A stretch of 64,000 nt of DNA from Aureispira anguillae (lineage in GTDB: Bacteria > Bacteroidota > Bacteroidia > Chitinophagales > Saprospiraceae). Below the pieces are notes generated by a model. That model did no database searches. It was not told the origin of the DNA and was given only the letters and a program-made list of their open reading frames with translations. Each line of letters opens with the position of its first letter. Positions within the stretch are counted from its first letter, which is position 1. The position numbers and the translations under genes are program-made. The stretch covers positions 2,263,501 through 2,327,500 of the forward strand of contig NZ_AP026867.1 in assembly GCF_026000115.1 (NCBI RefSeq), written 5' to 3'. Shown here piece by piece: positions 16,164 through 41,800 of the stretch.

Positions 16164-16203
16164 TTTATTGGTTTTTAATACTTTTAGTAAAGCAAATAAT
16201 AAA

Positions 16204-16233
16204 ACGCTACATATTGTTACCAATATGCAGCGT
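16204..16233 (-). terminator. Terminator-like hairpin between cobW and cobN
   Basis: On the minus strand ACGCT-g-CATATTG-GTAA-CAATATG-t-AGCGT forms a 12-base-pair stem with one mismatch and a 4-base loop, directly followed by TTTTATTATTT. It lies 14 bases after the cobW stop and 41 bases before the cobN start, so it could end part of the transcripts before cobN or protect the 3' end of the upstream message. Confidence 0.65.
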
Positions 16234-22184: not shown

Positions 22185-23275
22185 AGTCGTTTGTATTTAA
22201 TAAAATCGCCTTCTTTATGAATTAAAAAAAGGTCTAATTCTATTGGATTAAGAATTGTTTTACTTTGTTGATAACAACAGCTTAAAAGCTGTTGGTAAAA
22301 AGCTTCCTGTTCCTGAAAGGGAAAAATTTCAGGTAATCGTCCTGCCATATTAAGTTCCTTTATGGCGTTTTGTTGTTGCATATTATAGCCTGATTTTTGG
22401 GCTAGTCTCGCAATAAATTCCTTGTCCCAAGAAGAGACACAACTATGCGTATCCAACTGCCCAGCCGCTAATTTTACTGCCTTTCCCAGCATAATTCCAA
22501 GCGATACTTTTTGAATGGCCGAATGCCTTATTTTTTTTAAGGTTTCTCCAATCCAATTTCCATAATGTATAAAGGCCTGTTCTTTTAAATAAGGGAATAA
22601 AGCCCTTAGGTATTTTTCAGATCTTGCCCCAGAGTTAATGACCAGCTCTCGAATGCCATTGGCAACAGCGACATCAATTCCTTGCTCAATACTGGCAATA
22701 TAAGAGCTAGAGGAATAGGGCTTAACAATTCCTGTTGTTCCTAGAATCGATAAGCCATTCATAATACCAACTCGCTCATTGAGCGTGCGCTTAGCCAACC
22801 GAACCCCATTAACAACAAAAACAGTTACACAAACGCCAAAATCCCAATCGGCATCGTGTAGTAACTTTTGTAAGGCAGCAACCATCATTTGCCTTGGAAC
22901 AGGATTAATCGCAGCCTGTCCAACGGCTAATGACAAGCCTGGTAAGGTAACAGTGCCCACACCTTCGCCCGCAACAAACAAAACTTCTCCCTTCTTTTTC
23001 GTCAAGGTGATTTCGCAGCCTATTTCCGCCTTGTTGGTCACATCTGGGTCATCTCCAGCGTCCTTAATTACACTACATTTCGCCCATTCTTCTGTAAAAG
23101 CACAGGAATGAACGGGAATTGTCAATACTTTTTCGATGGGCAGAACTACCTGTACTTCCTTAGGGGGTGTTTGATGAATCATAGCCCACAACGCTGCTTT
23201 AGCCGCTGCCGTGGCAGAGGTTCCCGTTGTAAAGCCGTCCCTTAAAGGTCCTTCAGGTATTTTTCTTAAGCCCAT
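22181..23275 (-). CDS. cbiD: Cobalt-precorrin-5B C1-methyltransferase CbiD
   Basis: CbiD methylates C1 in the early-cobalt route; it is unrelated to CobF and is a marker of the anaerobic pathway. The 364-residue protein starts MGLRKIPEGPLRDGFTTGTSATAAAKAA, in which the RxGfTTGtcAtAAaKAA signature is clear (RDGFTTGTSATAAAKAAL). Further motifs are KDAGDDPDVTN and GEGVGTVTLPGL, then NGLSILGTTGIVKPYS. It overlaps cobK by 10 bases and the permease gene by 4. Confidence 0.95.
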   Translation of the reverse strand: MGLRKIPEGPLRDGFTTGTSATAAAKAALWAMIHQTPPKEVQVVLPIEKVLTIPVHSCAFTEEWAKCSVIKDAGDDPDVTNKAEIGCEITLTKKKGEVLFVAGEGVGTVTLPGLSLAVGQAAINPVPRQMMVAALQKLLHDADWDFGVCVTVFVVNGVRLAKRTLNERVGIMNGLSILGTTGIVKPYSSSSYIASIEQGIDVAVANGIRELVINSGARSEKYLRALFPYLKEQAFIHYGNWIGETLKKIRHSAIQKVSLGIMLGKAVKLAAGQLDTHSCVSSWDKEFIARLAQKSGYNMQQQNAIKELNMAGRLPEIFPFQEQEAFYQQLLSCCYQQSKTILNPIELDLFLIHKEGDFIKYKRL

Positions 23276-24024
23276 TTTTTTATCTCTTCTAGCAACCGTT
23301 CTAAATTATTTACCTCTGTAAAATAGGGGGGCATTGGAGGGCGTTTTATAATAATAATTGGCAATCCAAGTTCTAAGGCAACAGCTATTTTGGTCGCCAA
23401 AAAACCGCTTCCTCCGCTTTCTTTTGTTAAAATAACCCCTGTTTGATAATCTTGATAAATAGCCTTTTCATCTGCGTTCTTTTTATTGGGATAACCTAAA
23501 ATCAATTGAGAAGCAGGGAATTGGTGGTATGCTGCCAATTCAATAGAACTAGCTCGATCTAGTATTCTAAAAAAAGTTTTGTGCCGTTTCCAATAGTCCT
23601 CTAATTTGGGGATCGACTGCACGCCAGATAAAGCCATTAAGGTTTTCCCTGCAAATTGTTCGAACAGTAGCTTTAAACTCGTTGCATAATCCTTTGTATA
23701 ATGCACCAATTTATTGCATTGGCGTTCTTCATAAACCCGCTCTAAGCGATACACTGGAACCGCCAATTGTTGACTAACCTTATCAATCGTATTGTGCAGC
23801 AAGGTGGCAAAAGGGTGCGCAGCATTAATAATCCACTTTATTGCATGCTGTTGGATATAATTAGATAAAGCCTGTTCATCCAAAGCACCAAAACGATAAA
23901 TCCCCAAGCCATCTTCTTGATATTCTACGGCTGTCTTTGTCGAATAGTGATAGGGCTTCTTTACTTGCTTCATTAAGTCAAGCACCTGCCTGCCTTCTGT
24001 CGTTCCTCCAAAAATTAGAATCAT
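23266..24024 (-). CDS. cobK: (Cobalt-)precorrin-6A reductase CobK/CbiJ
   Basis: This NAD(P)H-dependent enzyme reduces the macrocycle of (cobalt-)precorrin-6A. The 252-residue protein has MILIFGGTTEGRQVL at the N-terminus, INAAHPFATLLHNTIDKV near 65-83, VYRLER, and GKTLMALSGVQSIPKL, all of the CobK/CbiJ family, and ends with TKESGGSGFLATKIA and IIIKRPPMPP. It starts 11 bases after the end of the cbiG-cbiF gene and overlaps cbiD by 10 bases. Confidence 0.93.
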   Translation of the reverse strand: MILIFGGTTEGRQVLDLMKQVKKPYHYSTKTAVEYQEDGLGIYRFGALDEQALSNYIQQHAIKWIINAAHPFATLLHNTIDKVSQQLAVPVYRLERVYEERQCNKLVHYTKDYATSLKLLFEQFAGKTLMALSGVQSIPKLEDYWKRHKTFFRILDRASSIELAAYHQFPASQLILGYPNKKNADEKAIYQDYQTGVILTKESGGSGFLATKIAVALELGLPIIIIKRPPMPPYFTEVNNLERLLEEIKKWA

Positions 24025-24035
24025 AGCTCAATCAA

Positions 24036-25877
24036 TTATTCTTTGAGTGTAAACTTTTTATTGGTTCTAAAAATATGTTTCCAATCAGGGTTATACAATT
24101 GAGATCTATTTTTACGAGCACCAATACAAGCACCAATAATGAATAAAACCGTCCGTGTTTTTTTGCTTTTTTTGACAATAGCCGCTAAGTTTTGCAGCGT
24201 TCCTTGATAAATTTCTTCATCCTTCCACGTTACCCGATAAAGTACTGCTACAGGCGTTTCTGGATCATAATGTTCTAATAATTGCGCCTCTACCTTCTTG
24301 ACCAAAGTAGCACTTAGAAAAATGCACATGGTTGCCTTATGTTTAGCCATTTCTTCCAATTTTTCAGCCTCAGGCAAGGGCGTTTTTCCAGCTCCTCTAG
24401 TCAGAATAACAGACTGCACCACTTCAGGAATGGTGAATTCAGATTTTAAGGCAGCCGCAGCCGCACTAAAAGAAGAAATTCCAGGAATGATAAAATAGTG
24501 CATGCCCAAGTCATCAAAAATGGACATTTGTTCTTGAATGGCACCATAAAGAGAAGGGTCGCCAGATTGTAAACGAACAATTAAGTGTCCTTTTTCATAA
24601 TGCTTTTGCATCAACGTAATTTGCTCTTCCAAGGTCATCATTGCTGAATTCATAACAACGGCTCCTGCTTTGCACCAATTCGTCATTTCCTCTGGCACTA
24701 AACTCCCTGCATACAGTACACAATCTGCTTGCTCTAAGTAATTCTTTCCTTTGACGGTAATGAGTAATTCATCGCCAGGACCTGCACCAATAATAGCAAC
24801 AACTGCCTTTCGCTCTGCCATACGATCCAAGGCTAAAGCAAAGGTGAATTTCTCCCCATTCTCTAATAAAACCTTCTGTTTTTCTACCAAGAGGCTAGTT
24901 TGATTCGCCAAAAGCATCGCAGTAGATTCTGAAACACCATCAACACCAATTTTTGCCTGAACGACTTTACTAGGGTTCGGAACCTCAATGGTTTGTATAA
25001 CTTCTCTTGTAAAAGTTTGGAAAGGAAGGTCGCATTCCTCTGAGAAGTCTACATAAGCCTGTTGTTTTGCTTTAATGTCCACCGAGCCAAAACATTTGAG
25101 GGCTGCGGGGGAGTATCCCTTTGCTTTTATGGATTCCAACAAGGTCGTTTTGAATTGTTCAGAATCTAAGGCTTTAGAACAACCTGTCCCAAGCGTTAAC
25201 ACTTTTGGATAAAAAGCAAGACAGGGGATTGTAGCCTTTATCAATCGAGGAGATACACAAATCAACAACTCAAATTTAGCGTAATCAATTGCTGTTTCTT
25301 TATAGAATACCGTGACAAAATCAGGCAAAGATTGCTCTAAATAAGCCGTTCCTTTGTCCTTTATTTCTAACAATAAAGCTGTTGGTTTTCTATTTACAAA
25401 CAAAGCCATTAATGCTGTCATAGAGGACGTACAGGCTACCGTCCAATCAAACTGCTCCGCCAAAAGATCCAAGGCCCAAATTTGTTGCACATCACTAGCA
25501 GTAGAAAGAACCGCTTGGCTACCAAAAATAGCAGCTACTTTTTCTGCCAAGGCATTGGCTCCCTTTTTGTGACCACCAATAACAGATTGTACAAAGTAAG
25601 TTTGTTCGTCCATACAAATCACCGCAGGGTCTAATTCTTTCCCTTCTAGAAACGGAGCAATCATTCGCACACAGATTCCCATAGCACTGATAAAAACAAT
25701 TCCATCCAATTGACTAAAGTATTGTTCTAAATACTCAGAGATAGAATTTACGCTAGATACGGTATCATAATTGTTTTCACGAGTAGTAATCAACAATGAT
25801 TTAGGGAATTGCTTTTGCAATACAAGCGCTTTTTTTATGGCTTGATCCGTTACGGCAATAAAAACTATTTTTTTCAT
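24036..25877 (-). CDS. CbiG-CbiF fusion (hydrolase + C11-methyltransferase)
   Basis: A 613-residue fusion of two consecutive enzymes. Residues 1 to about 345 are CbiG (cobalt-precorrin-5A hydrolase): FISAMGICVRMIAPFL, SVIGGHKKGANALA in the N-terminal domain, and LTLGTGCSKALDSEQF with VDGVSESTAMLLA in the C-terminal domain. Residues about 357-600 are CbiF/CobM (C11-methyltransferase): IIGAGPGDELLITVKG, YAGSLVPEEM, VRLQSGDPSLYGAIQEQ, PGISSFSAAAAALKSE. CbiF makes the substrate of CbiG, so the fusion fits channelling of the unstable lactone. It overlaps the cbiE-cbiT gene by four bases. CbiG marks the early-cobalt route. Confidence 0.92.
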   Translation of the reverse strand: MKKIVFIAVTDQAIKKALVLQKQFPKSLLITTRENNYDTVSSVNSISEYLEQYFSQLDGIVFISAMGICVRMIAPFLEGKELDPAVICMDEQTYFVQSVIGGHKKGANALAEKVAAIFGSQAVLSTASDVQQIWALDLLAEQFDWTVACTSSMTALMALFVNRKPTALLLEIKDKGTAYLEQSLPDFVTVFYKETAIDYAKFELLICVSPRLIKATIPCLAFYPKVLTLGTGCSKALDSEQFKTTLLESIKAKGYSPAALKCFGSVDIKAKQQAYVDFSEECDLPFQTFTREVIQTIEVPNPSKVVQAKIGVDGVSESTAMLLANQTSLLVEKQKVLLENGEKFTFALALDRMAERKAVVAIIGAGPGDELLITVKGKNYLEQADCVLYAGSLVPEEMTNWCKAGAVVMNSAMMTLEEQITLMQKHYEKGHLIVRLQSGDPSLYGAIQEQMSIFDDLGMHYFIIPGISSFSAAAAALKSEFTIPEVVQSVILTRGAGKTPLPEAEKLEEMAKHKATMCIFLSATLVKKVEAQLLEHYDPETPVAVLYRVTWKDEEIYQGTLQNLAAIVKKSKKTRTVLFIIGACIGARKNRSQLYNPDWKHIFRTNKKFTLKE

Positions 25878-27079
25878 TTATTCTTTTTTGCTACCAAAAC
25901 ATGAATGGTATTGTGATCGTCAATAACTAGTTTCATTTTATCGCTCAGGCTATAATTTAGGTGCCCAAACGTTGCTAAAAATGTATTCAAAGAGCTTTCT
26001 AAGACAGTATTCATTACCACCGTAGCGCCTTCTATTAAATAAGCATCTAATTGTTTAATCAAAGTCTCTAAACGCCCACCATGACCACCAATAAAAACCG
26101 ATTGCGGGGTGGGGAATGTCGCCAAATCCAAATCAAAAAAATCATGAATTAACACCTCAATTCCAGAGGTTTGCTGCTGTTCACAATTTTGTTGGATAAT
26201 AGCGCCGCATTCCAAGCGTTTTTCAATGGCTAAAACCTCCAAATGAGGATAATGTCGTTTAGCGTCTATGGCAATTGCTCCAGTACAACTTCCTATATCC
26301 CAAAATGTATTCGCCTTATGCAATTCCAACAATTGTACGTTTAATAATCTTAGCGGCATTTTAGTAATCATTTTAGGGCGACCTGCTAAGGTTTTAAATG
26401 TGTTATCGGGCTGAGACAAAGCAAGTTTTCGGCTTTGAGTTCGAATGAGTAACACACAGTTTAAAGAAGCTGCCTTATAATTGCTTGCTTCTTTGAGTTC
26501 CAAGGTTGATATTTGTTCGTCATCGCCCCCTAAGTTTTCACCAACAAGCATTTTATAATTATCAACTCCATACCTCAACATCCGCTGAGCAATATGTGCT
26601 GGGCTGTGCTGTGCATCCGTCAAAATTCCAATAAGAGATTGATCAGAGCGCAATACTTCATCCAATTTTTTCCAAGGTCTACCATGTAGCGAAACCGCTA
26701 ATAATTCATTGTAGGCAACTTGCTTTTTGTGACAAAGTAATTGGAGGCAATTAAAGGTTGGATAAGCCTTTAAACAAGTTGTTGGCATTAAACGTTTGAG
26801 CGTATTGCCAAAGCCATAAAAAAACGGATCGCCAGAGACAAAAATCAAAATGGAAGCGTTGAGGCTTCGATATTTTTGAACCAAGTTTTCCATCTTTCCC
26901 TTAATGGGTATCCAATGATGTTTGGCAGGCAACAAGTCTTGAACAAGCTCATAATGTCGAGTTCCGCCTGAGTAGTAGTATCCAGCCTTCACCAAAGCCT
27001 CAACTTCTGGACTAAAGGATGGATTCTTTTTATTTCCAATTCCAATCAAATAAATAACCATTTGTTCTAGTTTGTCCAT
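25874..27079 (-). CDS. cobL: CbiE-CbiT fusion (CobL-like precorrin-6Y methyltransferase)
   Basis: A 401-residue two-domain enzyme that methylates C5 and C15 and decarboxylates the C12 side chain. CbiE occupies about 1-215 (YLIGIGNKKNPSFSPE, ILIFVSGDPFFYGFGNTL), CbiT about 230-401 with the SAM motif FWDIGSCTGAIAIDAKRH and VFIGGHGGRLETL. Translation may start at residue 7 (MVIYLIGIG, base 27061), which fits the family better than the longer form; the longer form leaves only 5 bases to bluB. It is fused as in CobL of aerobic producers, although the rest of the operon is of anaerobic type. Confidence 0.92.
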   Translation of the reverse strand: MDKLEQMVIYLIGIGNKKNPSFSPEVEALVKAGYYYSGGTRHYELVQDLLPAKHHWIPIKGKMENLVQKYRSLNASILIFVSGDPFFYGFGNTLKRLMPTTCLKAYPTFNCLQLLCHKKQVAYNELLAVSLHGRPWKKLDEVLRSDQSLIGILTDAQHSPAHIAQRMLRYGVDNYKMLVGENLGGDDEQISTLELKEASNYKAASLNCVLLIRTQSRKLALSQPDNTFKTLAGRPKMITKMPLRLLNVQLLELHKANTFWDIGSCTGAIAIDAKRHYPHLEVLAIEKRLECGAIIQQNCEQQQTSGIEVLIHDFFDLDLATFPTPQSVFIGGHGGRLETLIKQLDAYLIEGATVVMNTVLESSLNTFLATFGHLNYSLSDKMKLVIDDHNTIHVLVAKKNK

Positions 27080-27084
27080 GCCTT

Positions 27085-27735
27085 TTATGGATTACAATTG
27101 TTATAACCATTGGTATAAATAACTTCTTCCATTTGTTTGCGTTTTTCCCATTTTAGAAGCTCTAATTCTGGAACCTTATAAAAATGGTCAACATAACCCA
27201 GACAAAGGTATCCTACTAATTTTCGATTGGAGGGGACTTTTAGAATAGAACAAATCTTGTCTGGATCAACAATACTAACCCAACCCAAGCCTACGTTTAA
27301 AGATCGAGCCATCAACCACATATTTTGTATCGCACAAACCACACTATAGGTTCCCATTTCAGGCATTGAAGTTTGCCCCAAAACAGGTCCCTTGCTGGGG
27401 TTATAAAAAACAGCAATATTCAAAGGCGCCTCGATAATTCCTTCTAATTTTAATTGTTGGTATTGATCCTGTTTTCGTTCAAACTGGTTAGCTGCTTTTT
27501 GATTTTCTAGATCAAAAGATGCTCGAATTGCTTTTTTTACCTTAAGATCATCAATTAGGACAAATTCCCAAGGTTGTGAAAACCCAACAGAAGGCGCATT
27601 AACCCCTGCAAATAAAATTTTGTGGATAATATCTGGTGGCAGTGGTTGGGGCAAAAAATGATTCCCTCTCACATCTCTTCTGTGCAAAAGAATCGATTCT
27701 AAAACAGCAGTATCGTTAGCATTAAATGTTTTCAT
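27085..27735 (-). CDS. bluB: 5,6-dimethylbenzimidazole synthase BluB
   Basis: BluB cleaves reduced FMN with O2 to form 5,6-dimethylbenzimidazole, the lower ligand. The 216-residue nitroreductase-fold protein has the BluB features: RRDVRGNHFLPQPLP near the N-terminus, FAGVNAPSVGFSQPWEF, MGTYSVVCAIQNMWLMAR and GLGWVSIVDPDK, then CLGYVDHFYKVPELE. It sits inside the corrin-ring operon rather than near cobT. It requires oxygen, while the ring pathway beside it is of early-cobalt type. The unrelated nitroreductase at 59353 lacks these motifs. Confidence 0.92.
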   Translation of the reverse strand: MKTFNANDTAVLESILLHRRDVRGNHFLPQPLPPDIIHKILFAGVNAPSVGFSQPWEFVLIDDLKVKKAIRASFDLENQKAANQFERKQDQYQQLKLEGIIEAPLNIAVFYNPSKGPVLGQTSMPEMGTYSVVCAIQNMWLMARSLNVGLGWVSIVDPDKICSILKVPSNRKLVGYLCLGYVDHFYKVPELELLKWEKRKQMEEVIYTNGYNNCNP

Positions 27736-27761: not shown

Positions 27762-29132
27762 TTATAAAAATTCCGTGGCATCCTCTAAGGTAAAGGCAGC
27801 ATTAACGATAGCAGCTGCTACATTACTTCCACCTCGGTTGCCCTCTACAGTAACCCAATTGGTTCCTTTTGCCTGTACTAATTGTTCTTTAGATTCTATA
27901 ACATTTACAAAACCTACTGGTGTTCCCACAATCCCTACAGGTTTAAACGTTTCATTTTCTTTCAATTGCTCCGTTAACTCAATCAATGCAGTTGGAGCAT
28001 TCCCAATAACAAATAAGGCATTGGGGTGTTTTTCAATCGCTATGCGTATTCCTGCTTGCGATCGTGTCAAATTTTCTTTAGCTGCCAAGGCTAAAGTGGC
28101 TTCTTCATTGAGGTAACAATGAATTTCATTGGCATACTTTTTACTAAATGCCTTTGTAATTCCTGCTTTTACCATCGTGACATCGGTAACAATAACCCCA
28201 CCTTTGACGAGGTAGTCGTGCCATTTTTCTATTGCCTGTTCAGAACCCTTAAAATACTGGTGATCTTCTAAAATTCCCGTTGTGTGAATTAGGCGAGTAA
28301 TTGCCCATTTTTCTGCCAAGGTTTTTGGTAAATGCTGGATGTGACTGGTTACGATTCGGAAGCTTTCTTGTTGAATTTCTTTTCCCGTTTTTGGTTTACG
28401 GTTCAAATAGCCCCTTGGGGTTACCAAGTTATTTTTAAACTGGAAGGTTTGAGAATTCCCAAACATAACCAAACAAAACATATCTACTGTATCTGGATCA
28501 AATGCACCCAACGTTGTCAATTCTATGGATTCCTCTGGTCGAGTCACTTGGCGGACAATCGCCACTGGTGTATCGGCAGCACGTTCTTCTAGAAAGATAT
28601 TTTTGCAGCACGTCAATTGCCAATGTCTCTTTTTGCTCCTAGGGTTATAAAAGCTAGTTACAAAATCGCCTGCTGCTGCTGCCTTTATTCGCTTTTCAAT
28701 AACATTCCAAGGCGTCATTAAATCAGAAAGCGAAATGCAGCAAAAATCATGTCCTAGTGGTGCCCCCAGTTTGCTACCTGCTGCCAAAAAAGCCGAAACG
28801 CCTGGCAAGGTTTCCAATTCTATTTGTTCTAAATTCTGCTGGGCTACCATTTCATAAACAATAGCTGCCATAGAATAGATGCTAGCATCTCCAGAACCAA
28901 TGACAACGACATTTTGCCCCATTAAGGCTTTTTCAATAGCGGCGGCAGCCCTCGCTTCTTCTTTGCCCAATGGCATTCCTATAAATTCTGCTTTCTCAGC
29001 TGCGAAAGGGGCTGCAAATTGAAAATAATAGGTATAGCCTATAATAACATCGGCTGCTCCTAATGCTTTTTTGACAATTGGCAATAAATAATCAAGTCCT
29101 CCAGGACCTAAACCCGCTACTGTTATTTTCAT
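27762..29132 (-). CDS. CbiH-CbiC fusion (C17-methyltransferase + methylmutase)
   Basis: A 456-residue fusion. Residues 1 to about 245 are CbiH/CobJ, the ring-contracting C17-methyltransferase: VAGLGPGGLDYLLPIV, IGSGDASIYSMA, ETLPGVSAFLAAGSKLGAPL, TSFYNPRSKKRHWQL. Residues about 255-456 are CbiC/CobH, precorrin-8X methylmutase: LIHTTGILEDH with the catalytic His, GGVIVTDVTMVKAGI, FVIGNAPTALIEL, GTPVGFVNVIESKE and VEGNRGGSNVAAAI. The two steps are not adjacent in the pathway. It overlaps cbiL by four bases and lies 26 bases before bluB. No CobG- or CobZ-type monooxygenase is present, consistent with cobalt-assisted ring contraction. Confidence 0.93.
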   Translation of the reverse strand: MKITVAGLGPGGLDYLLPIVKKALGAADVIIGYTYYFQFAAPFAAEKAEFIGMPLGKEEARAAAAIEKALMGQNVVVIGSGDASIYSMAAIVYEMVAQQNLEQIELETLPGVSAFLAAGSKLGAPLGHDFCCISLSDLMTPWNVIEKRIKAAAAGDFVTSFYNPRSKKRHWQLTCCKNIFLEERAADTPVAIVRQVTRPEESIELTTLGAFDPDTVDMFCLVMFGNSQTFQFKNNLVTPRGYLNRKPKTGKEIQQESFRIVTSHIQHLPKTLAEKWAITRLIHTTGILEDHQYFKGSEQAIEKWHDYLVKGGVIVTDVTMVKAGITKAFSKKYANEIHCYLNEEATLALAAKENLTRSQAGIRIAIEKHPNALFVIGNAPTALIELTEQLKENETFKPVGIVGTPVGFVNVIESKEQLVQAKGTNWVTVEGNRGGSNVAAAIVNAAFTLEDATEFL

Positions 29133-29851
29133 ATTCGAACTATTATTAGTGAAAAATAAGGAATATCACGATTCATAATTTCATTCCAATTGGTGCTCAT
29201 AAATTGCTGAGCGGTTCCAAGTCGTTCGAAATAATAAATTTCAGCATTTTCATGCTGACTCAAAACTTCTTGGATTAGCCCAATCGAAGACTTTATCTTC
29301 ATTAAAACAAGACAACTAAAAGCCGCTAAAGCTTCCTCCAAAATCCCTTTATCTTGAACCCTTGGCAAAATAATGAGTGGTTCGTCTTGGAGACACAAAG
29401 GAATTTGTTGCTGCGCTGCGGCCAAACTATAGGAACTAATTCCAGGAACTAATTCCACCTCTAAATGATGTTTTTTTATTCGACGGAGCAAGTAAGCAAA
29501 GGAACTGTAAGTACTAATATCACCTTCGCTAACAATGGCAATAGAACGACCTGCTTTATAATCGGATAAAATATACTCAAATGCATTCGAATAGGTAAGT
29601 TCAGCAGCCGTTCTATCTAAATTCATGGCGAGGTAAAACCCCTTGCATTTTTGAAGGTCCAGATCATACTGCTCCATAATACTCAAGGCATAACTAGATT
29701 TTCTGCCGCTAGAAAACAAAGCCCCAGGGTAGTAAATTACATCCACTGTTTTAAGAATGTCCAAACCTTTGACCGTAATTAAGTCAGGATCTCCAGGACC
29801 TAGTGCCACGCCAAAAATACAGGGCTTTTTTATGTTATGATTTTTCTTCAT
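29129..29851 (-). CDS. cbiL: (Cobalt-)precorrin-2 C20-methyltransferase CbiL
   Basis: CbiL/CobI methylates C20 of cobalt-factor II. The 240-residue SAM-dependent tetrapyrrole methylase has GVALGPGDPDLITVKGLD at residues 14-31, VIYYPGALFSSGRKSSYA, IAIVSEGDISTYSSF and ELVPGISSYSLAAAQQQIPL, in the order of the family. The gap to cbiX is 2 bases and it overlaps the next gene by ATGA, so it is tightly coupled to cobalt insertion and to the following methyltransferase. Confidence 0.93.
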   Translation of the reverse strand: MKKNHNIKKPCIFGVALGPGDPDLITVKGLDILKTVDVIYYPGALFSSGRKSSYALSIMEQYDLDLQKCKGFYLAMNLDRTAAELTYSNAFEYILSDYKAGRSIAIVSEGDISTYSSFAYLLRRIKKHHLEVELVPGISSYSLAAAQQQIPLCLQDEPLIILPRVQDKGILEEALAAFSCLVLMKIKSSIGLIQEVLSQHENAEIYYFERLGTAQQFMSTNWNEIMNRDIPYFSLIIVRI

Positions 29852-29853
29852 TT

Positions 29854-30783
29854 TTATATTCCCAATGCCTTTTTAAATGCGACAAGCAATCCTTTTTTTT
29901 CTCCTACTTTTTCATCTTCTTCAAATAAAACCCCTCTAACATTTAGATGATGTCCAACTTGCTCTAAACCTTGACAATGTTCAACACCTACAATCTGTTT
30001 GCGATACTTGCACAATTGGCAATTCATATTGGCTGTTCCATTGATAATTTCTTCCAAACGCTCATCAAATGCTTGAAGGATTAACTCATCCGTTCCAAAT
30101 GCAGCTGTGCAAACATATTGGCTGTTTCCTTCAAAATTATTTAGTTGTTGTATCACTCGTTGTAATAAAATCCCTGTAAAGAAAAAGAATGGAATTGCTA
30201 TCACTCGCTCAAACCCTAATCTATCGACTCTTGGCAATGCCTCAGGAATGGCGGGATAAGCTGTGCCGCTATAAGCAACTGTAGTGAAACCAAAGCCCAT
30301 TCCTTCGCCTATGATGCAAGCCAATTTATGCACATCAGAATTTGCATCTGGATCGGTTGTCCCTCTGCCAACGACCAACAAACAACAATCTTTTCTGTCG
30401 ATAGGACTCCGTTCAGCCTCCGTTTCTAAAACTCGTTTTTTTGCCAATTCTACCAAAAAAGAACTTACCCCAATATGACGCCCCATTTTAATGGTCAAAT
30501 CAGGATAATAGCTTTGAATGGTATTCATTTCGTAGGGAATATCATTTTTGGCGTGTGATCCAGCAAATAAAATAACAGGGAGGGCATAAATTTCCCGAAT
30601 TCCCTTTTGGTACATTCGTTCTACAGCCGCTTCATAGACAGGATGATTAAATTCTAAAAAACCATAATCTACTTCGTAATCGCTGTAGCGTTTTTTGAGC
30701 AGTTCAATCAATGACTTAAAAGCATCTGTCCCTGATTTTGTCCTACTTCCGTGCCCACAAAGCAAAATTCCTTTTTTGGTCAT
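29854..30783 (-). CDS. cbiX: Sirohydrochlorin cobaltochelatase CbiX, long form with Fe-S tail
   Basis: CbiX inserts Co2+ into sirohydrochlorin without ATP. The 309-residue protein is the long, two-domain form: GILLCGHGSR with His11, VILFAGSHAKNDIPYEM with His77, and a second half with LLVVGRGTTDPDANSDVHKLA. The C-terminal region has MNCQLC (Cys255, Cys258) and Cys270, matching the MxCxxC motif known to hold a [4Fe-4S] centre in Bacillus CbiX. The Fe-S tail suggests redox sensing or electron exchange, perhaps with the ferredoxin two genes upstream. It overlaps the SDR-SUMT gene by ATGA. Confidence 0.93.
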   Translation of the reverse strand: MTKKGILLCGHGSRTKSGTDAFKSLIELLKKRYSDYEVDYGFLEFNHPVYEAAVERMYQKGIREIYALPVILFAGSHAKNDIPYEMNTIQSYYPDLTIKMGRHIGVSSFLVELAKKRVLETEAERSPIDRKDCCLLVVGRGTTDPDANSDVHKLACIIGEGMGFGFTTVAYSGTAYPAIPEALPRVDRLGFERVIAIPFFFFTGILLQRVIQQLNNFEGNSQYVCTAAFGTDELILQAFDERLEEIINGTANMNCQLCKYRKQIVGVEHCQGLEQVGHHLNVRGVLFEEDEKVGEKKGLLVAFKKALGI

Positions 30784-32330
30784 CGTTGTTCAATTTTTTT
30801 TACTCCAACAATAAATACAACAGGCATTTCTAAAGCCGATTTTTTAACATCTATTTCTATAGTTTCTAAAGTAGATTGAAGTAATGTTTCATTGGTTCTA
30901 GAAACATTTGAAATGGCATTAATAGGAATGGTAGGGTCTCCACAAACCTCCAATAATTTGGGGATTAATTTATTCAGGCTTCGAAGTCCCATATACAGCG
31001 CCAAGGCATTACCAGCCTTCAATAATTCGGCAATGCCTTTGAGTTGCTCAAAAGAATAATCGGCGGTATGAGCCGTACAAATAAGTACAGCATTGGATTG
31101 GGAACGTTCGGTTAATGGAATATTATGCTGGTTGGCTGCTGCCAAAGCTGCGGATATACCAGGAACAACCGAAAATGGAATTTGAAGCCCCTTTAGGAAA
31201 CGGGCTTCTTCCGCAGCTCTTCCATAAATATAAGGGTCGCCCGACTTTAACCGTACTACTTTTTTGCCTTGATGATACGATTGAGCAAGCAGTTGATTAA
31301 TTTTATCTTGCCGTTCTTTTTGATTCGATTGATCTCCATATTTCCGACCAACATAAATTAACTCCGCCTTGGCATTTAACGCTAAAATTTCATTGGATAC
31401 CAAATTATCGTGAAGAATAACTTCTGCGGACTGGAGCAATTTGTAAGCCTTTCGAGTCAGTAAGGAAGGATCGCCTGGACCTGCTCCAATAATGGCAATT
31501 TCTCCAAGTTGTTTTTCTTCAAAAATGAGTTCGGGATTCGCATATTGGTAGTCAAAATTAAGCAACCGTTTAGATTTAGAATTATCTATTATTTTGTACG
31601 TTTTTGTATCTGTTTCGCCAAATATAGGCGAGGGTAATTCCAGTTGTTGAGCGGCTTTGGTATAATACGCTTTTCGGATAGGATGCTCATCGGCACAACC
31701 GTTGATTAGTTCTCCGAAACAATTCAAATCAATAATCCGCTGAATCAAAGCAATCACATCTGTTCTGTGAATTAGATTAATTGGAACATCGGGATTTTTT
31801 AAGGCTCGTTTATTGGCTAAAAAACGCCCTGGATGCCGTTCTGGACCAATTAATCCAGCTAGGCGCAAGATTGTCAAATTAGCCCCAAAATGCTTCCGAA
31901 GCTTATTTTCTGCTGCTAAAACAGCTTTGCCAGATAATTTAGAAGGCCGTGCAGGATCGTCTTCTGTTATTCTTCTGTTCTCATTGGCATAAACGGCTGT
32001 AGAACTAATAAAAATCACCGAAATATTAGGATTCGTCCGTTGAACAATTTGTTCAATTTGTTGAGGATAGACCTCTGCTATATCATCAATGCGTTTGGGC
32101 GGAAAATTGATGATCAAAAGATCTACATTTTTCATAAAAACAGCCCAATCTCCTATAATTTCATCGCAATTGAGCTGGAGACGTCCTGTATAAAAAGGAT
32201 GCCGTGCCAATAACAAGAGTTTATCTATACTGGTAGTAGAACCTATTATTTCATGACCAGCTTGATAGAGTTTTGTTGCCAAAGCCTCTCCAAGCCATCC
32301 CAAACCTATAATACTAATTCGCTTGCTCAT
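30780..32330 (-). CDS. SDR (YeeZ-like) fused to uroporphyrinogen-III methyltransferase
   Basis: A 516-residue fusion. Start at 32330 is chosen because it gives an ATGA overlap with the ferredoxin gene and puts the Rossmann motif IIGLGWLGEA at residues 7-16. Residues 1 to about 270 are an atypical SDR/epimerase of YeeZ type (IFISSTAVYANENRR near 107, LRLAGLIGPERHPGRFL, LIHRTDVIALIQ, LINGCADEHPIRK). Residues 276-516 are SUMT/CobA (IIGAGPGDPSLLTRKAYKLL, VRLKSGDPYIYGRAAEEA, VVPGISAALAAA, NAVLICTAHTAD), which makes precorrin-2. No Met8/CysG-N/SirC gene is visible, so the SDR half might oxidise precorrin-2; that is untested inference. I do not know this domain pairing from other pathways. Confidence 0.9.
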   Translation of the reverse strand: MSKRISIIGLGWLGEALATKLYQAGHEIIGSTTSIDKLLLLARHPFYTGRLQLNCDEIIGDWAVFMKNVDLLIINFPPKRIDDIAEVYPQQIEQIVQRTNPNISVIFISSTAVYANENRRITEDDPARPSKLSGKAVLAAENKLRKHFGANLTILRLAGLIGPERHPGRFLANKRALKNPDVPINLIHRTDVIALIQRIIDLNCFGELINGCADEHPIRKAYYTKAAQQLELPSPIFGETDTKTYKIIDNSKSKRLLNFDYQYANPELIFEEKQLGEIAIIGAGPGDPSLLTRKAYKLLQSAEVILHDNLVSNEILALNAKAELIYVGRKYGDQSNQKERQDKINQLLAQSYHQGKKVVRLKSGDPYIYGRAAEEARFLKGLQIPFSVVPGISAALAAANQHNIPLTERSQSNAVLICTAHTADYSFEQLKGIAELLKAGNALALYMGLRSLNKLIPKLLEVCGDPTIPINAISNVSRTNETLLQSTLETIEIDVKKSALEMPVVFIVGVKKIEQR

Positions 32331-33133
32331 TCCGTTGGATCTTTTAAACCTTGAAGTTGTATCGTTAACAAATAATTCCAAATTTGGGGCTCATTGTTTG
32401 CTAGATGAATACTAGCAATCACTTTTCCCATTTTGTTGGTGAAGCGAATTTTTCGCTGTTTTGTCTGTTGAACAATAAAATAGGTCGTTGATGTTATTTT
32501 ATTTTGCTGTTCCTCTAAAGGTTCTGTCTTTGGTACAGCGCCTATATTCAAAGAAATATTTGCTCCATCGTCAAAGTGCAAGAAAAGCTTATAATCGTCC
32601 GTATAAGTAATGCCAGCTAGTGACTTTAGCGCAAAAGCTCGTTCCTTATTAAAGGTTATTGTCGTTTCTTTAGCATTTTCTTTTAAATACAAGAACAAAG
32701 GATAAAGATATTGATCCGAGCTAAACCCTTTAGTATACCAACAGTTGCCCCAAAGCGCATCTTCTTTTTCAAAAAAAGGCTTCGGAAGAATCCTTGGGCG
32801 TTCTTTGTCAGACTGAACAGCACTAAACCCATCCATATAAATTAGGTCAGATTTAAGCGGTTCGGATGTTGCTATGTGCGATTCAATAATTCGTGTAATT
32901 TTATCGGCAGACAATTCTTTGTACCAATAATTTCCCGATTGGACAATACAAGTAGGGGCATCCTCGCAGCGGCCATTGCAACGAGTTCGAATGGTATGTG
33001 TCTCATGCCACAAATCTTTATTTCGAAGATAAGCTCTAGCGGTTCGGACTACCTGTTCACTGCCTGCCTTGCGGCAAGAACCACCATCACAAAAATAAAT
33101 TGTAGTGGTCACTTTTGATAAATCTTTTCCCAT
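32327..33133 (-). CDS. Thioredoxin-like [2Fe-2S] ferredoxin with extra C-terminal domain
   Basis: A 268-residue protein. Residues about 9-90 form a thioredoxin-like [2Fe-2S] ferredoxin: YFCDGGSCRK (Cys15, Cys20) and RCNGRCEDAPTCIV (Cys52, Cys56, Cys62). Residues about 105-268 form a separate domain without a name I can give, mostly beta strands, with WGNCWYTKGFSSDQY. In Bacillus the cobalamin operon gene cbiW also encodes a small Fe-S protein beside cbiX; here the gene is second in the riboswitch operon and overlaps the SUMT fusion by ATGA. It may pass electrons to or from CbiX, the SDR half or a cobalt reduction step. The partner is not proved. Confidence 0.8.
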   Translation of the reverse strand: MGKDLSKVTTTIYFCDGGSCRKAGSEQVVRTARAYLRNKDLWHETHTIRTRCNGRCEDAPTCIVQSGNYWYKELSADKITRIIESHIATSEPLKSDLIYMDGFSAVQSDKERPRILPKPFFEKEDALWGNCWYTKGFSSDQYLYPLFLYLKENAKETTITFNKERAFALKSLAGITYTDDYKLFLHFDDGANISLNIGAVPKTEPLEEQQNKITSTTYFIVQQTKQRKIRFTNKMGKVIASIHLANNEPQIWNYLLTIQLQGLKDPTE

Positions 33134-33138
33134 AGTAA

Positions 33139-35391
33139 TTAGAAGGTATAAGTAGCAGAACCTTTAATGAAAATTGGTGTTCCTGGAGTAAAATGAAAAT
33201 CATCTACTGGCATCGTTTCTTGTCTGAGGCGTGAAGCATCATAAAATACGGCTTCCATCCATTGGCTATTCAACAAATTCTGAGCAGAAACACCAAAGGT
33301 TAAACTCTTATAGGTATAAGACAAAGAAGCATCCAGCAAAAAGTAAGGATCTGCCATGACCGATTCATCTTCAATCAATGGGCGAATCCCCATATACCTC
33401 ATTCCAATATAAGCGTCTATTCCAATAGGGTGATTATAGGAAATAGAAGCCGTAGATGTAAACCTCGGAGCGGAAGGAATACTATTGGCATCTTCAGGCT
33501 CTTCTAGCAAAATTCCATAGCTATAATTTAAGGCTAGATTTAGCCATAGATTGCGGATGGGTTCATATTTGGTAGAAAAATCAAGGCCATAGCGCAACGA
33601 TTTTCCATTGTCTTCAAACTCTCCAGCATCGGGTACAAATAGGTATTCTGCATCACTCTGAATCAGCCAAGTTGTTGCCGAAACAATCCATTTTTTAGCA
33701 ATTCTAGCTACTCCACCAAAATCAGCAGACAAGGCTCTTGGTAATGGATCAACACTTAAGTTTTCAACGGCAGCTTGTGCATAATTAGAATGGAAGCCAC
33801 TTCCGCCTTTTAAGAACAATTGAAGCTCTGGGATGGGATTATAAAAAATAGAAATTTTAGGGCTAAATCGGTGGGCAATTCGTCCTTTTGAGCTTTGTTC
33901 TAATTGGTTGTTTACCTTAAATTGAAATAAATCAAGACGAGTTCCAAACTGTACAATCCATTGCTCGTTTAACCTCCATCTTTCTTTGATATACAACCAA
34001 TAATTTATTTCTTGGACGTTGTTATTATCATTAATCGCTAAAGCTTTTCTTTGAATAGAAGATAGCATTTTGGAATGCGTGAAATCAGCACGAATTCCTG
34101 CTGAAATTGTACTTTTTAAAGTAGTCCTAGCGAATAGCTTATCGTTTCGATGGTACTCAAAAGTATAACCAAACAAATTCCTTTGCTCCACTTGATCTAT
34201 CATATCCCCGTTTAGGCTGTCGTTCAAGAAAAAGGTGAAATTTGAAAACAATTGGTATTGATTGTTAGAATAGTATGCAAAGTTGTTAATGCGCTGATTC
34301 TTTCCCAATAAAGAAGCTAACTTTATACTTGCGTTAATTCGTCCAGTGCTTCCACCTTCGGTATCATCAATAGCGCCAAACCATCCAATCGTATTATTGG
34401 TAACAGCCCTTAATGGAATTTGCCCTGAAGCGTCCCAACTGCTCTTAAAATAAGAAGCACCAACAGTCAAGGAAGTAGACGACCCAATTTGGGTGTTGTA
34501 CTTAAACACAGCATTTAGCTTTTTGAACTTTTGATCGGCTTCAAAAAAGCCTCGGTTAAGCGTTCCTTCTATTGCTAAAAATGCTTTTTCGTAATTTTTC
34601 TTGGAAAAAAATCGATTCTTAGGGGTTAAGTTCAATCGAACAAGCCCTCTCAAAAATCCATATTGGCCAATATCTAATTTTATAGAATTTTTAGACAAGC
34701 CATTAATCATTTTGAATCTAGCTGCTCCAGAAACAGCAAAGTTTCCATTTTGTATTTCATGAGATCCTTTGTAAAAATCAGCATCTTGGATAAGTTCAGG
34801 AATCATAAAATGCATATCGGCATAACCTTGACCATGTGCATGGTTGGATAAGTTAATGGGAATTCCATCTACAAAAACCGCAAAATCTGTCCCATGGTCA
34901 TTGTCAAAACCTCTCAAAAAAATCTGTTCGGCCTTGCCGCCTCCAGCATGTTGAGCAATAAACACTCCGCTCATTGTACGAAGCAAGTCTTGGGCATTGT
35001 TTGCAGGCATTAGCTTCAAGTCAATTTTATCTATTTGCTGTGTCCCTAAAGTGGTGTTCCTATCAGCAACAATGCTAATCTCTTGAAGATATTCGCTACC
35101 CACTTCTAATTTAATTTGAGGAGCAGCAATTATATCTCGAAAAATAACGGTCTGTGTTTTATAGCCTAAACAAGAAAACTCAATGGTATCAGTAGGGCTG
35201 CCTTCTATCCTAAACCAACCAACATCATTGGAAGCCGCAACTACTTTTGTTTGTTTGTTGAATACATTGACAAAAGGAATAGCAAGCCCTGTTTGGTGCT
35301 CAACAATTTGAGCGTGGACTTCTTCTTTTGCAAAAAGGGATGAATGAAAGAAAAAGAAAAAGAAAATAAGGACAAAAAAATAGCTTCTCAT
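33139..35391 (-). CDS. TonB-dependent receptor for corrinoid or cobalt, riboswitch-controlled
   Basis: A 750-residue outer-membrane receptor. The start at 35391 gives the signal peptide SYFFVLIFFFFFFHSSLFA; the longer frame from 35451 runs into the leader. A CarboxypepD_reg-like domain (about 25-110, LGYKTQTVIF) precedes the plug (LLRTMSGVFIAQHAGGG, FLRGFDNDHGTDFAVFVDG) and a 22-strand barrel ending in an aromatic residue (TYTF). The plug has a His-rich loop, NHAHGQGYADMH. It is first in the operon after the cobalamin riboswitch, so a BtuB-like role is likely; the His-rich plug and the biosynthetic operon also allow a cobalt or corrinoid-precursor substrate. Confidence 0.88.
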   Translation of the reverse strand: MRSYFFVLIFFFFFFHSSLFAKEEVHAQIVEHQTGLAIPFVNVFNKQTKVVAASNDVGWFRIEGSPTDTIEFSCLGYKTQTVIFRDIIAAPQIKLEVGSEYLQEISIVADRNTTLGTQQIDKIDLKLMPANNAQDLLRTMSGVFIAQHAGGGKAEQIFLRGFDNDHGTDFAVFVDGIPINLSNHAHGQGYADMHFMIPELIQDADFYKGSHEIQNGNFAVSGAARFKMINGLSKNSIKLDIGQYGFLRGLVRLNLTPKNRFFSKKNYEKAFLAIEGTLNRGFFEADQKFKKLNAVFKYNTQIGSSTSLTVGASYFKSSWDASGQIPLRAVTNNTIGWFGAIDDTEGGSTGRINASIKLASLLGKNQRINNFAYYSNNQYQLFSNFTFFLNDSLNGDMIDQVEQRNLFGYTFEYHRNDKLFARTTLKSTISAGIRADFTHSKMLSSIQRKALAINDNNNVQEINYWLYIKERWRLNEQWIVQFGTRLDLFQFKVNNQLEQSSKGRIAHRFSPKISIFYNPIPELQLFLKGGSGFHSNYAQAAVENLSVDPLPRALSADFGGVARIAKKWIVSATTWLIQSDAEYLFVPDAGEFEDNGKSLRYGLDFSTKYEPIRNLWLNLALNYSYGILLEEPEDANSIPSAPRFTSTASISYNHPIGIDAYIGMRYMGIRPLIEDESVMADPYFLLDASLSYTYKSLTFGVSAQNLLNSQWMEAVFYDASRLRQETMPVDDFHFTPGTPIFIKGSATYTF

Positions 35392-35416
35392 TGTTTTACA
35401 TAGATTAGATTGTTGT

Positions 35417-35526
35417 AAAAAAAGAAGCTTTGGGATAGGTGTATAATACACAGAATCTTTGCCCTACTATAAAAGGCAAGATTTAAGATGTAGCTGTACA
35501 CAATAAACTTTTATTCCCGAAAGCTC
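35417..35526 (-). terminator. Riboswitch expression platform: multibranched terminator candidate
   Basis: On the minus strand GAGCTTTCGGG (35526-35516) pairs with CCCAAAGCTTC (35434-35424) with one mismatch and one G-T, and the 3' arm is followed at once by TTTTTTT (35423-35417). The enclosed segment holds two smaller hairpins: AATCTTGCC/GGCAAAGATT (35483-35454) and GTGTAT-ATACAC (35451-35439). The 5' arm lies about 12 bases after the riboswitch P1 stem, so ligand binding could favour the terminator. The alternative antiterminator pairing was not found by eye. Confidence 0.55.
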
Positions 35527-35537
35527 TATTTGTATCG

Positions 35538-35730
35538 AAATATATGGCAGGTCTTCTGACTTACTCCGCTTTTGATTACCTTCCCAGCTTATAGCCAGTG
35601 GTTTTTGCTTATCAAAAGTTGTTTAGGAGCTTACAGCTGCGGGTACAGTTCTTGATTTTCACAAGATTCCCTTTTAATTTTGAAGCATAAAATCACATTC
35701 ATTTATGCTTCAAAAACCTAAATATTTTTG
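35538..35730 (-). promoter_or_regulatory. Cobalamin riboswitch
   Basis: Read on the minus strand, the conserved blocks occur in the canonical order: a P2 hairpin (GAAGCATAAA/TTTATGCTTC, 35712-35683), AAAAGGGAATC (35675-35665), GTGAAAATC (35662-35654), ACTGTACCCGCAGCTGTAAG (35649-35630), CCACTGGC (35601-35594), GGGAAGGT (35585-35578) and the B12 box AGTCAGAAGACCTGCC (35561-35546). AAATAT/ATATTT can close P1. It lies about 150 bases upstream of the TonB receptor start and should repress the whole 35391-12417 operon when adenosylcobalamin is abundant. Confidence 0.96.
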
Positions 35731-35821
35731 CGAAGATATTCATATTATTAAATCTATCGCAATAGACTTGTACTTTATTTCAAATAAATTTAATTAGCGC
35801 TCCTCTCCTATGCGACTATGG

Positions 35822-38839: not shown

Positions 38840-41800
38840 CTATTCTTTTATCATTTTAACAATTTGTACGTTGCCCTTCGTTTCTACTTTAACAAAGTAA
38901 ACTCCTGTTATCAAACGCTCTACTGGCAATTCAATTTGTTTTGCTGCTTGATATGCTTGTTGAAGAAGCACCCTACCATTGATGTCTAGAATTTCTATCG
39001 CTACATCTTGACTACTTTTTAATTCAATTGTTAGATAGTCTTTAGTCGGAGTAGGATAAATTTTAAAAGACAAAGTTTCTTTGGCGATCGTTCCTATGCT
39101 TAGGTTTGTGAAATTTACACAGTTTGAAGTATCTACACAATTCGTATTGCTCAGGATCACGGCGTAATTTCCATTTGAAGTAGGTACAAAACTTTGGTTC
39201 GTTGCTCCAGCAATAGGAACGTTTAAAGAATCACAATTAATCCACTGGTAATTTACGCCTGCTTGATTGGCTATCAAAGTAGTGCCATTTATAGCTACCG
39301 TTACATCTAGGTTGGTAATTGTTAAATTCAATGTCACTACGGAATCACAGCCTGCTGCATTGGTCAAGGTATGTGTAGCCGTATTGTTACTAGAGGTATA
39401 TACATTTCCATCTATCCACGTATACGTATCACAAGCCGTTTGCGCATCTACTCCACTTGTACTATTTAAAATTGTCAAATTTAATGTCACTACGGAATCA
39501 CAGCCTGCTGCATTGGTCAATGTATGCGTAGCTGTATTGTTACTAGAGGTATAAGTATTCCCATCTATCCACGTATACGTATCACAAGCCGTTTGGACAT
39601 CTACTCCACTTGTGCTGTTTAAAATTGTCAAATTCAATGTCACTACCGAATCACAGCCTGCTGCATTGGTCAATGTATGCGTAGCTGTATTGTTACTAGA
39701 GGTATAAGTATTCCCATCTATCCACGTATATGTATCACAAGCCGTTTGTGCATCTACTCCACTTGTGCTATTTAAAATCGTCAAATTCAACGTCACTACG
39801 GAATCACAGCCTGCTGCATTGGTCAATGTATGTGTAGCCGTATTGTTACTAGAGGTATATACATTTCCATCTATCCATGTATACGTATCACAAGCCGTTT
39901 GTGCATCTACTCCACTTGTGCTGTTTAAAATCGTCAAATTCAATGTCACTACCGAATCACAGCCTGCTGCATTGGTCAGCGTATGCGTAGCCGTATTATT
40001 ACTAGAGGTATAAGTATTTCCATCTATCCATGTATACGTATCACAAGCCGTTTGCGCATCTACTCCACTTGTACTATTTAAAATTGTCAAATTCAACGTC
40101 ACTACCGAATCACAGCCTGCTGCATTGGTCAAGGTATGTGTGGCCGTATTATTACTAGAGGTATATACATTTCCATCTATCCATGTATACGTATCACAAG
40201 CCGTTTGTGCATCTACTCCACTTGTACTATTTAAAATTGTCAAATTCAACGTCACTACTGAATCACAGCCTGCTGCATTGGTCAATGTATGTGTAGCTGT
40301 ATTATTACTAGAGGTATAAGTATTCCCATCTATCCATGTATACGTATCACAAGCCGTTTGTGCATCTACTCCACTTGTGCTGTTTAAAATCGTCAAATTC
40401 AATGTCACTACCGAATCACAGCCTGCTGCATTGGTCAGCGTATGCGTAGCCGTATTATTACTAGAGGTATAAGTATTTCCATCTATCCATGTATACGTAT
40501 CACAAGCCGTTTGCGCATCTACTCCACTTGTACTATTTAAAATTGTCAAATTCAACGTCACTACCGAATCACAGCCTGCTGCATTGGTCAAGGTATGTGT
40601 GGCCGTATTATTACTAGAGGTATATACATTTCCATCTATCCATGTATACGTATCACAAGCCGTTTGTGCATCTACTCCACTTGTACTATTTAAAATTGTC
40701 AAATTCAACGTCACTACTGAATCACAGCCTGCTGCATTGGTCAATGTATGTGTAGCTGTATTATTACTAGAGGTATAAGTATTCCCATCTATCCATGTAT
40801 ACGTATCACAAGCCGTTTGTGCATCTACTCCACTTGTGCTATTTAAAATCGTCAAATTCAATGTCACTACCGAATCACAGCCTGCTGCATTGGTCAACGT
40901 ATGTGTAGCTGTATTATTACTAGAGGTATAAGTATTCCCATCTATCCATGTATACGTATCACAAGCCGTTTGCGCATCTACTCCACTTGTGCTGTTTGAG
41001 ACATTTAACAACAATACCAATATTGAATCACAGCCCATGACATTTGTCAGTGTATCAAAATAAGCACCTGCTGTTGTAGCTACTTGTGATCCCCAATAAA
41101 TAGTATCTCCATAACAGATACTACTATCAATTAGCATACGATGCCCACAATCAAATTCTGCTGCCCCAACATCTCTACGAGCATCTCTAATAAACCCATT
41201 CTGTGCTGATGAGAAATCAGAAGGATTTCCTGCATTTATAGCTGTACTTCCCCACATGGGTAGCCTAGTAAGCGTTGTGCCACCATTATCTTGCAAAGGG
41301 CCTAAATTTAAACCACTAGATGAGAAAATAGAATGGGTTGGCGTATAATATTGTGAAGGGTTAGAGGAAACACCCCCTAAAATGATGCTGCTGATTGATT
41401 TAAATTTATGATAAAATCCTGTATTTCCATGATATGGATTAAAAGGAGATGCATAGTAATTAGCTCCTTGCATCAAAGTAGAATTAATGATATTCAAATT
41501 TGCTTCAAAAGAACTATTGGCTCGAAAATCTACAGCCCTTCCAGCATTATTAGTAAAGGTACTTGTTCTTACAGAACAGTTGGAACGACTGCGACTCGTA
41601 TACTGTCGTACTACAGATTGCCCTCCTGTATTTCGATAAAAGGTACTCTTATTTATACTAGTATTAACAGACGTAACAATAGAACGAGAAGCACTAGAAG
41701 AAAAGTAACTCCCCTCTTGCACTAAAATGGCACTACCTTCACCAACTGAGCTATTTCTATAAAAAAAGCAACCAATTACCGTTAGATCTAATCTACGTTT

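Follow-up and report, generated by a model that had tools for sequence, protein, structure and literature searches.

A YeeZ-like SDR domain fused to SUMT, a candidate precorrin-2 dehydrogenase in a Bacteroidota B12 operon

Which enzyme oxidises precorrin-2 in the B12 pathway of Aureispira anguillae? The question is raised by a single gene in the stretch of 64,000 nucleotides analysed here (the window; contig NZ_AP026867.1, positions 2,263,501 to 2,327,500), in which a YeeZ-like short-chain dehydrogenase/reductase (SDR) domain is joined to uroporphyrinogen-III C-methyltransferase (SUMT) directly before the cobaltochelatase gene cbiX. An original prediction, made from the window itself, saw no Met8- or CysG-type dehydrogenase gene and proposed the SDR domain as its replacement. 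We regard the fusion as a candidate SDR-type precorrin-2 dehydrogenase for B12 synthesis, and the chances that it is such a CysG-like bifunctional protein made from another fold as evenly balanced. A broader proposal falls a little short of even: that one branch of the YeeZ-like SDRs, found in the B12 operons of Bacteroidota and allied groups as well as in certain siroheme operons, is a third, unrelated type of precorrin-2 dehydrogenase, that its fusion to SUMT converges on the architecture of CysG, and that it is the sole such enzyme in B12 makers lacking Met8.

The fusion protein and its two domains

The fusion gene (30780–32330, minus strand) opens with an ATG at 32330, encodes 516 amino acids with no internal stop and closes with a stop codon whose last base is 30780. 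It shares ATGA overlaps with a 2Fe-2S ferredoxin gene upstream and with cbiX downstream (CbiX match, 136.1 bits), so that the predicted neighbour is indeed present. As also predicted, the single frame joins a YeeZ-like Rossmann domain to a complete SUMT. The SUMT domain (residues ~275–510; 30801–31508) scores 227.8 bits against TIGR01469, over the cut-off of 185; its top NCBIfam score, 241.3 bits, is with the CysG model and lies below that model's cut-off of 400. The SDR domain (residues 1–268; 31527–32330), delimited from Pfam matches, fold and alignment, carries a GLGWLG nucleotide-binding turn and matches general Rossmann/SDR models only (PF03807, 28.2 bits; PF01370, 25.7 bits). It belongs to no curated family and has no NCBIfam match at E ≤0.001.

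The protein resembles CysG, the enterobacterial siroheme synthase, in that one chain carries an N-terminal Rossmann dehydrogenase-type domain followed by a C-terminal SUMT, but the N-terminal domain is an extended SDR and not of the Met8 type. This part of the original prediction holds: PF13241 is absent from the eight Pfam matches of the protein (E ≤1), as is TIGR01470 from the 25 NCBIfam matches listed of 32 (E ≤0.1). Because cbiX follows, chelatase activity would not be expected of the fusion, unlike CysG. By its defining model the protein lies outside the Met8 family, but with its NAD(P)-binding Rossmann fold (PF03807, PF01370 and a model match to NAD-solved SDRs) it may be Met8-like in action. 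The proposed reaction and pathway place, precorrin-2 to sirohydrochlorin with NAD(P)+, are those of SirC and Met8p, although the SDR is unmatched by Met8-type models and a true SirC/Met8 lies elsewhere in the genome. Passages of a tetrapyrrole review (PMC7242693) and of a B12 review (PMC8123684) give SirC, Met8p and CysG for this oxidation. Searches of the openly licensed literature, with passages of PMC7242693, PMC4921024, PMC8620254 and PMC8123684, turned up neither a function for YeeZ nor an SDR–SUMT fusion.

An AlphaFold2 model of the SDR half, built from a 45-row alignment, has an extended SDR fold (mean predicted local distance difference test score 95.6). The nearest solved sequences by profile are 3gpi (87.2 bits) and 3ius (61 bits). 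In Foldseek 3ius ranks first (E 1.9e-18) and 3gpi 33rd (E 1.1e-12), and the remaining matches are mostly sugar-nucleotide SDRs. SDR structures solved with NAD, such as 6kv9, are among the fold matches. The SDR half thus combines an extended SDR fold with kinship by sequence to 3gpi, 3ius and E. coli YeeZ (b2016, 'putative epimerase'), which form one SDR family with it; the titles of 3gpi and 3ius name no function. YeeZ differs in standing alone, away from SUMT, and in occupying a far branch of the SDR tree. Arg165, His188, Asp191, His216 and Tyr223 are conserved in nearly all other rows of the alignment too, including YeeZ, and are therefore not by themselves markers of a tetrapyrrole enzyme.

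In the mechanism that we propose, the C-terminal SUMT, by its family, would methylate uroporphyrinogen III twice to give precorrin-2. The N-terminal SDR would bind NAD(P)+ and remove two electrons and two protons from precorrin-2, yielding sirohydrochlorin, into which CbiX, the product of the next gene, would insert cobalt. Fusion would hold the intermediate inside one protein. The separate SirC/Met8, with a SUMT of its own beside sulfite reductase, would serve siroheme, leaving the SDR–SUMT protein as a branch dedicated to B12.

Recurrence of the SDR beside SUMT and cbiX

Relatives were collected from named genomes, which were scanned with a profile built on four clustered SDRs, and the best 80 of 530 candidate loci were taken, which is not an unbiased sample. 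Among these 80, SDR, SUMT and cbiX occur in that order in 14, and in another 5 (Chitinophaga, Xanthocytophaga) the SDR stands directly before cbiX without SUMT, giving 19 at SUMT and/or cbiX in B12 operons. A further 13 have SDR–SUMT without B12 genes (Prolixibacteraceae, Marinifilum and one unnamed Bacteroidota), and in one cobB lies beside the SDR. The common ground of the clustered loci is the step between SUMT and the chelatase. Of the 13 SDR–SUMT loci without B12 genes, which we call siroheme-type, 11 contain a sulfite-reductase homologue.

The same uninterrupted SDR–SUMT frame is present in three further genomes (Fluviicola NORP8, Kordia NORP58 and Flavobacteriales MAG-57; loci L129, L130 and L131), so that the search for other fusions suggested with the original prediction was productive; the frame, now known from four genomes, is therefore not an assembly accident. 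In three more genomes (G260 and those of loci L135 and L140) SDR and SUMT are adjacent and in frame, parted by one stop codon and an immediate ATG. Among the matches listed for 395 genomes of the phylum, three besides A. anguillae have SDR and SUMT in one B12 cluster, side by side in G260 and G259 and with bluB between them in G182. Long CbiX was found in 2 of 395 genomes of the class sample (E ≤1e-25), that of A. anguillae and G260, both with SDR–SUMT beside it. In the order sample the SDR occurs in 17 of 149 genomes (E ≤1e-10) and is fused in the window's genome only; at 17 loci around order-sample SDRs, one of them the standalone paralogue of A. anguillae itself, no B12 protein of the window was matched beside the SDR. 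The rarity of B12 makers in the group agrees with the 0.6% of Bacteroidetes given in PMC8123684.

A quick tree built from 110 SDRs placed the window domain in one group with 13 further SDRs that are B12-linked and 5 that stand alone (Shimodaira–Hasegawa-like approximate likelihood-ratio test, SH-aLRT, 99). In approximately unbiased (AU) tests a clade of the 23 B12-linked rows alone was rejected (p-AU 0.000123). A clade of these rows with six standalone rows, chosen after seeing the tree, was not rejected (p-AU 0.579), and neither was one uniting the 23 B12-linked, 13 siroheme-linked and same six standalone SDRs (p-AU 0.729). A single origin of the clustered SDRs is possible. Recruitment of B12-linked SDRs on three or more occasions, suggested by the quick tree, was dropped because the wider clade was not rejected.

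Two other YeeZ-like SDRs stand directly before cobU in G182, as a second copy (L098:9239–10587), and before cobB in Pelodictyon luteolum (L186:10001–12144), hinting at a broader link of the family to B12 genes.

Met8 and the competing roles of the SDR

No Met8/CysG-N gene is found in the window, as the original prediction had stated, but the genome as a whole contains one. Three genome matches (E ≤10) all lie outside the window, and a SirC/Met8-type gene at C1:5334142–5334639, ~3.0 Mb from the fusion, scores 124.4 bits against TIGR01470 (cut-off 62.3). This match, together with a sensitive Rossmann model, rules out a genome lacking Met8. The nearest solved relatives of the gene product are CysG (1pjq), SirC (3dfz) and Met8 (1kyq), and the gene adjoins a second SUMT, a sulfite reductase with a NIR_SIR domain and a cysH-like gene, in a stretch that matches no Rfam family. 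The fused SDR accordingly need not replace Met8 in this organism.

TIGR01470 is matched over cut-off in 32 of 38 genomes searched; of the other six, G182, G556, G564 and G580 have no match, G259 has noise and G558 has fragments. Four of these six are B12 makers that bear the SDR and have no Met8 above noise (G182, G259, G556 and G564). G182, 99% complete, consists of one contig (3,293,456 bases), G259 is 99% complete, and G556 and G564 are metagenome-assembled genomes (MAGs). The sensitive Rossmann model, applied to ten chosen genomes, recovers five true Met8 proteins at 87 to 99 bits and places everything in G182, G259, G395, G403 and G508 below 32 bits.

We sought the NIR_SIR domain in 31 chosen genomes, comprising 24 of the 38 searched with TIGR01470 (including all without Met8) and another 7. 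Of these, 24 carry the domain, and 23 of the 24 have Met8 (in G558 as below-cut-off fragments only), the exception being G580. The domain is absent from seven (G182, G259, G556, G564, G395, G403 and G508), none of which has Met8. Met8 tracks siroheme-type reductases, and the SDR branch tracks gene clusters for B12 or siroheme. The four B12 makers named above as bearing the SDR lack NIR_SIR, and in them the clustered SDR is the sole candidate found for the oxidation step.

The marker gene cbiD is present in 23 of the 395 phylum genomes, 18 with Met8 and 5 without. Of the 18, a clustered SDR is found in A. anguillae and in G260, and in neither G322 nor the clusters inspected of group f38 (six of its 15 genomes among the 18). 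Of the five without Met8, G182 and G259 have a clustered SDR. The remaining three, G395, G403 and G508, are possible counter-examples, having cbiD and, in the stretches seen, neither Met8 nor the SDR. G395 and G508 show no SUMT beyond a cross-match to CobM, G403 has a SUMT-like gene at 160.1 of the required 185 bits in a transporter- and TonB-looking cluster, and CbiK-like genes occur in the stretches of two of the three. We infer that these organisms use imported precursors.

In the B12 clusters of G395 and G403 (L115:8998–11162 and L120:7961–8881) there are CbiK-like proteins with apparent signal peptides, judged by eye, encoded near TonB receptor-like genes, with no SUMT over cut-off, as though an imported precursor were metallated outside the cytoplasm. 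The SUMT-like gene of G403 (L259:9103–9846) and one in G182 (L260:8996–9796; 151.7 bits, same cut-off) both lie, in two distant genomes, amid genes resembling TonB receptors and ABC importers, and may represent a paralogue of SUMT connected with the uptake of corrinoids or iron.

Group f38, perhaps Chlorobiaceae, has the same downstream gene order as the window (cobI, cobJ-cbiC, cbiET, cbiG-cobM, cobK, cbiD). It differs in a CbiK-like gene, identified from sequence, where the window has long CbiX, in the absence of an SDR at the six loci inspected, and in Met8 being present elsewhere in all six genomes. PMC8620254 lists cbiK and sirC for a Chlorobium.

Several observations weigh against the SDR as a precorrin-2 dehydrogenase, most heavily its occurrence together with Met8 in siroheme-type genomes, the SDR-free cluster of G322 and the broad standalone spread of the family. 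With a Met8 in the genome that could serve both the siroheme and the B12 pathway, the SDR domain is not required to explain B12 synthesis in A. anguillae. The predicted anticorrelation between SDR and Met8 proved weak: among 22 genomes whose B12 operon includes the SDR, Met8 is over cut-off in 17, fragmentary in 1 and missing in 4, and the SDR/Met8 contrast in the phylum sample comes from two genomes that belong to a single family. Since Met8 adjoins sulfite reductase in this group, a missing contig could have removed both from the MAGs G556 and G564. Met8 and the SDR occur together in 11 of 12 siroheme-type genomes searched and in the same locus in 10 of the 13 siroheme-type loci; L158, the one such locus resolved gene by gene, reads met8, cysJ-like, cysI-like, hemD, SDR, SUMT. 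Conversely, one genome of the phylum sample, G322, has Met8 and the same B12 cluster, long CbiX included, without SDR–SUMT. The wider family must also do something else, because 47 of the best 80 loci have none of SUMT, cbiX or cobB next to the SDR and a standalone relative occurs in G528, which has neither a SUMT match nor Met8. Even within the clade of the window domain, the SDRs of G473 and Kordia algicida have no B12 gene beside them. No recurrent tetrapyrrole gene was seen around 73 standalone SDR loci, whose neighbouring genes were clustered and inspected by eye with no family search.

The catalytic residues are a further difficulty. The classical YxxxK dyad is lost from the SDR half, where Tyr149 of 6zl6 (marked by the Y149F variant 6zlj) aligns with Ser133 and the Lys with Val137. 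Serine occupies the Tyr position in all 23 B12-linked SDRs, in 11 of 13 siroheme-type SDRs and in 62 of the 80 remaining rows, of which a few are identical; YeeZ and 3gpi share an SST-Y stretch and S-G-K/R where YxxxK would be. Loss of the dyad makes ordinary SDR alcohol chemistry unlikely. Removal of a hydride from a tetrapyrrole carbon would, we infer, work without it.

The lost dyad, the presence of Met8 here and in 17 of the 22 genomes, and the SDR-free B12 cluster of G322 would all fit an arrangement in which SirC/Met8 supplies both pathways and the SDR half is an accessory of SUMT, there to hold, channel or protect precorrin-2 or to sense NADP(H), and carries out no oxidation. We think this unlikely, if well worth weighing: an accessory alone would leave the step undone in G182, G259, G556 and G564, and an SDR that stands beside cbiX without SUMT is a poor fit to a SUMT subunit. 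As a replacement for Met8 the SDR is favoured by its recurrence at SUMT and cbiX and by the four B12 makers without Met8; A. anguillae itself lacks no such enzyme.

The cofactor bears on the direction of the reaction. In the window protein the loop after strand 2 reads GSTT, with no acidic residue, and Gly30 and Ser31 are largely conserved. A Rossmann fold without an acidic residue at this place points to NADP(H), and the cofactor of the SDR half looks more likely to be NADP+ than NAD+. Because such a preference would blur the direction, we considered a reductase or repair enzyme that depends on NADPH and brings early intermediates, once over-oxidised or damaged, back into the pathway, for example by turning sirohydrochlorin into precorrin-2. 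The CobN-type chelatase in the same run would suit this role, since a late-insertion route would want reduced intermediates, as would the wide distribution of standalone relatives. We nevertheless find it improbable, because cbiX, cbiD and cbiG are hallmarks of the early-cobalt route, for which the oxidised form is required, and because the genomes without Met8 would remain without an oxidase.

It is very improbable that the SDR feeds electrons to the reductive contraction of the cobalt-factor III ring by CobJ/CbiH: it shares the gene run with cobJ-cbiC and a 2Fe-2S ferredoxin, but it also lies beside SUMT in siroheme-type clusters, where no ring contraction occurs, and its fusion partner is SUMT and not CobJ. 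That a housekeeping SDR from a nearby gene was fused by chance and plays no part in B12 synthesis is just as improbable, because, common as the family is and standalone as it is in the relatives examined in the order sample, the repeated association with SUMT or cbiX (32 of the best 80 loci) and the fusion in four genomes argue strongly against it.

If the SDR is a precorrin-2 dehydrogenase, the completion of the early-cobalt pathway in B12 makers that lack Met8 would be accounted for, and the calling of B12 producers from genomes would change. Some members of a widespread group labelled 'putative epimerase' would also gain a function, and there would be an independent case of the same domain order evolving around one intermediate.

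The siroheme-type operon at L158:5213–11637 encodes a Met8 of 150 amino acids that stops soon after its Rossmann part and whose gene lies with those of the SDR and hemD. Short Met8 proteins in four siroheme-type loci keep the GGG turn and the Asp of DxPxxC and read CQF for CDF (10 of 30 loci parsed).

The B12 gene run of the window

The genes around the fusion form a long run on the minus strand. Upstream, on the same strand, lies a cobalamin riboswitch (35529–35736; RF00174, 103 bits), under which the run is probably co-transcribed. Between riboswitch and fusion are a TonB-dependent receptor-like gene (33139–35451), whose homologues immediately precede the ferredoxin gene in a number of related operons (for example L129 and L130), and the gene for a thioredoxin-like 2Fe-2S ferredoxin with a C-terminal extension (32327–33133; PF01257, 27.6 bits, cut-off 24.8), a common neighbour across related operons. 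Downstream, cbiX (29854–30783) encodes a sirohydrochlorin cobaltochelatase of the long form, whose MNCQLC sequence fits the MXCXXC motif given for CbiXL in a reference title quoted in PMC7242693.

There follow cobI/cbiL (29129–29851; TIGR01467), a cobJ-cbiC fusion (27762–29132; TIGR01466, PF02570), bluB (27085–27735; TIGR02476), a cbiE-cbiT fusion (25874–27079; TIGR02467, TIGR02469), a cbiG-cobM fusion (24036–25877; PF11760/PF11761/PF01890, TIGR01465), the precorrin-6A reductase gene cobK/cbiJ (23266–24024; PF02571) and cbiD (22181–23275; TIGR00312). A NicO-type transporter, an AAA/VWA chelatase-like subunit and a CobN-type protein are encoded in the same run. Further pathway genes of the window, identified like the TonB receptor-like gene from sequence alone, are cobU, cobB, pduO, cobW, cobQ, cobT, cobS and cbiB.

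The run combines the early chelatase CbiX with a CobN-type large chelatase and its AAA/VWA partner (12417–16223 and 19807–21471), a mixture also seen in G260 and G322. Elsewhere in the window, the region 38840–42469 encodes a protein that looks secreted by eye, and the gene for it carries 11 tandem copies of a 153-bp unit (39317–40997; 93% matches).

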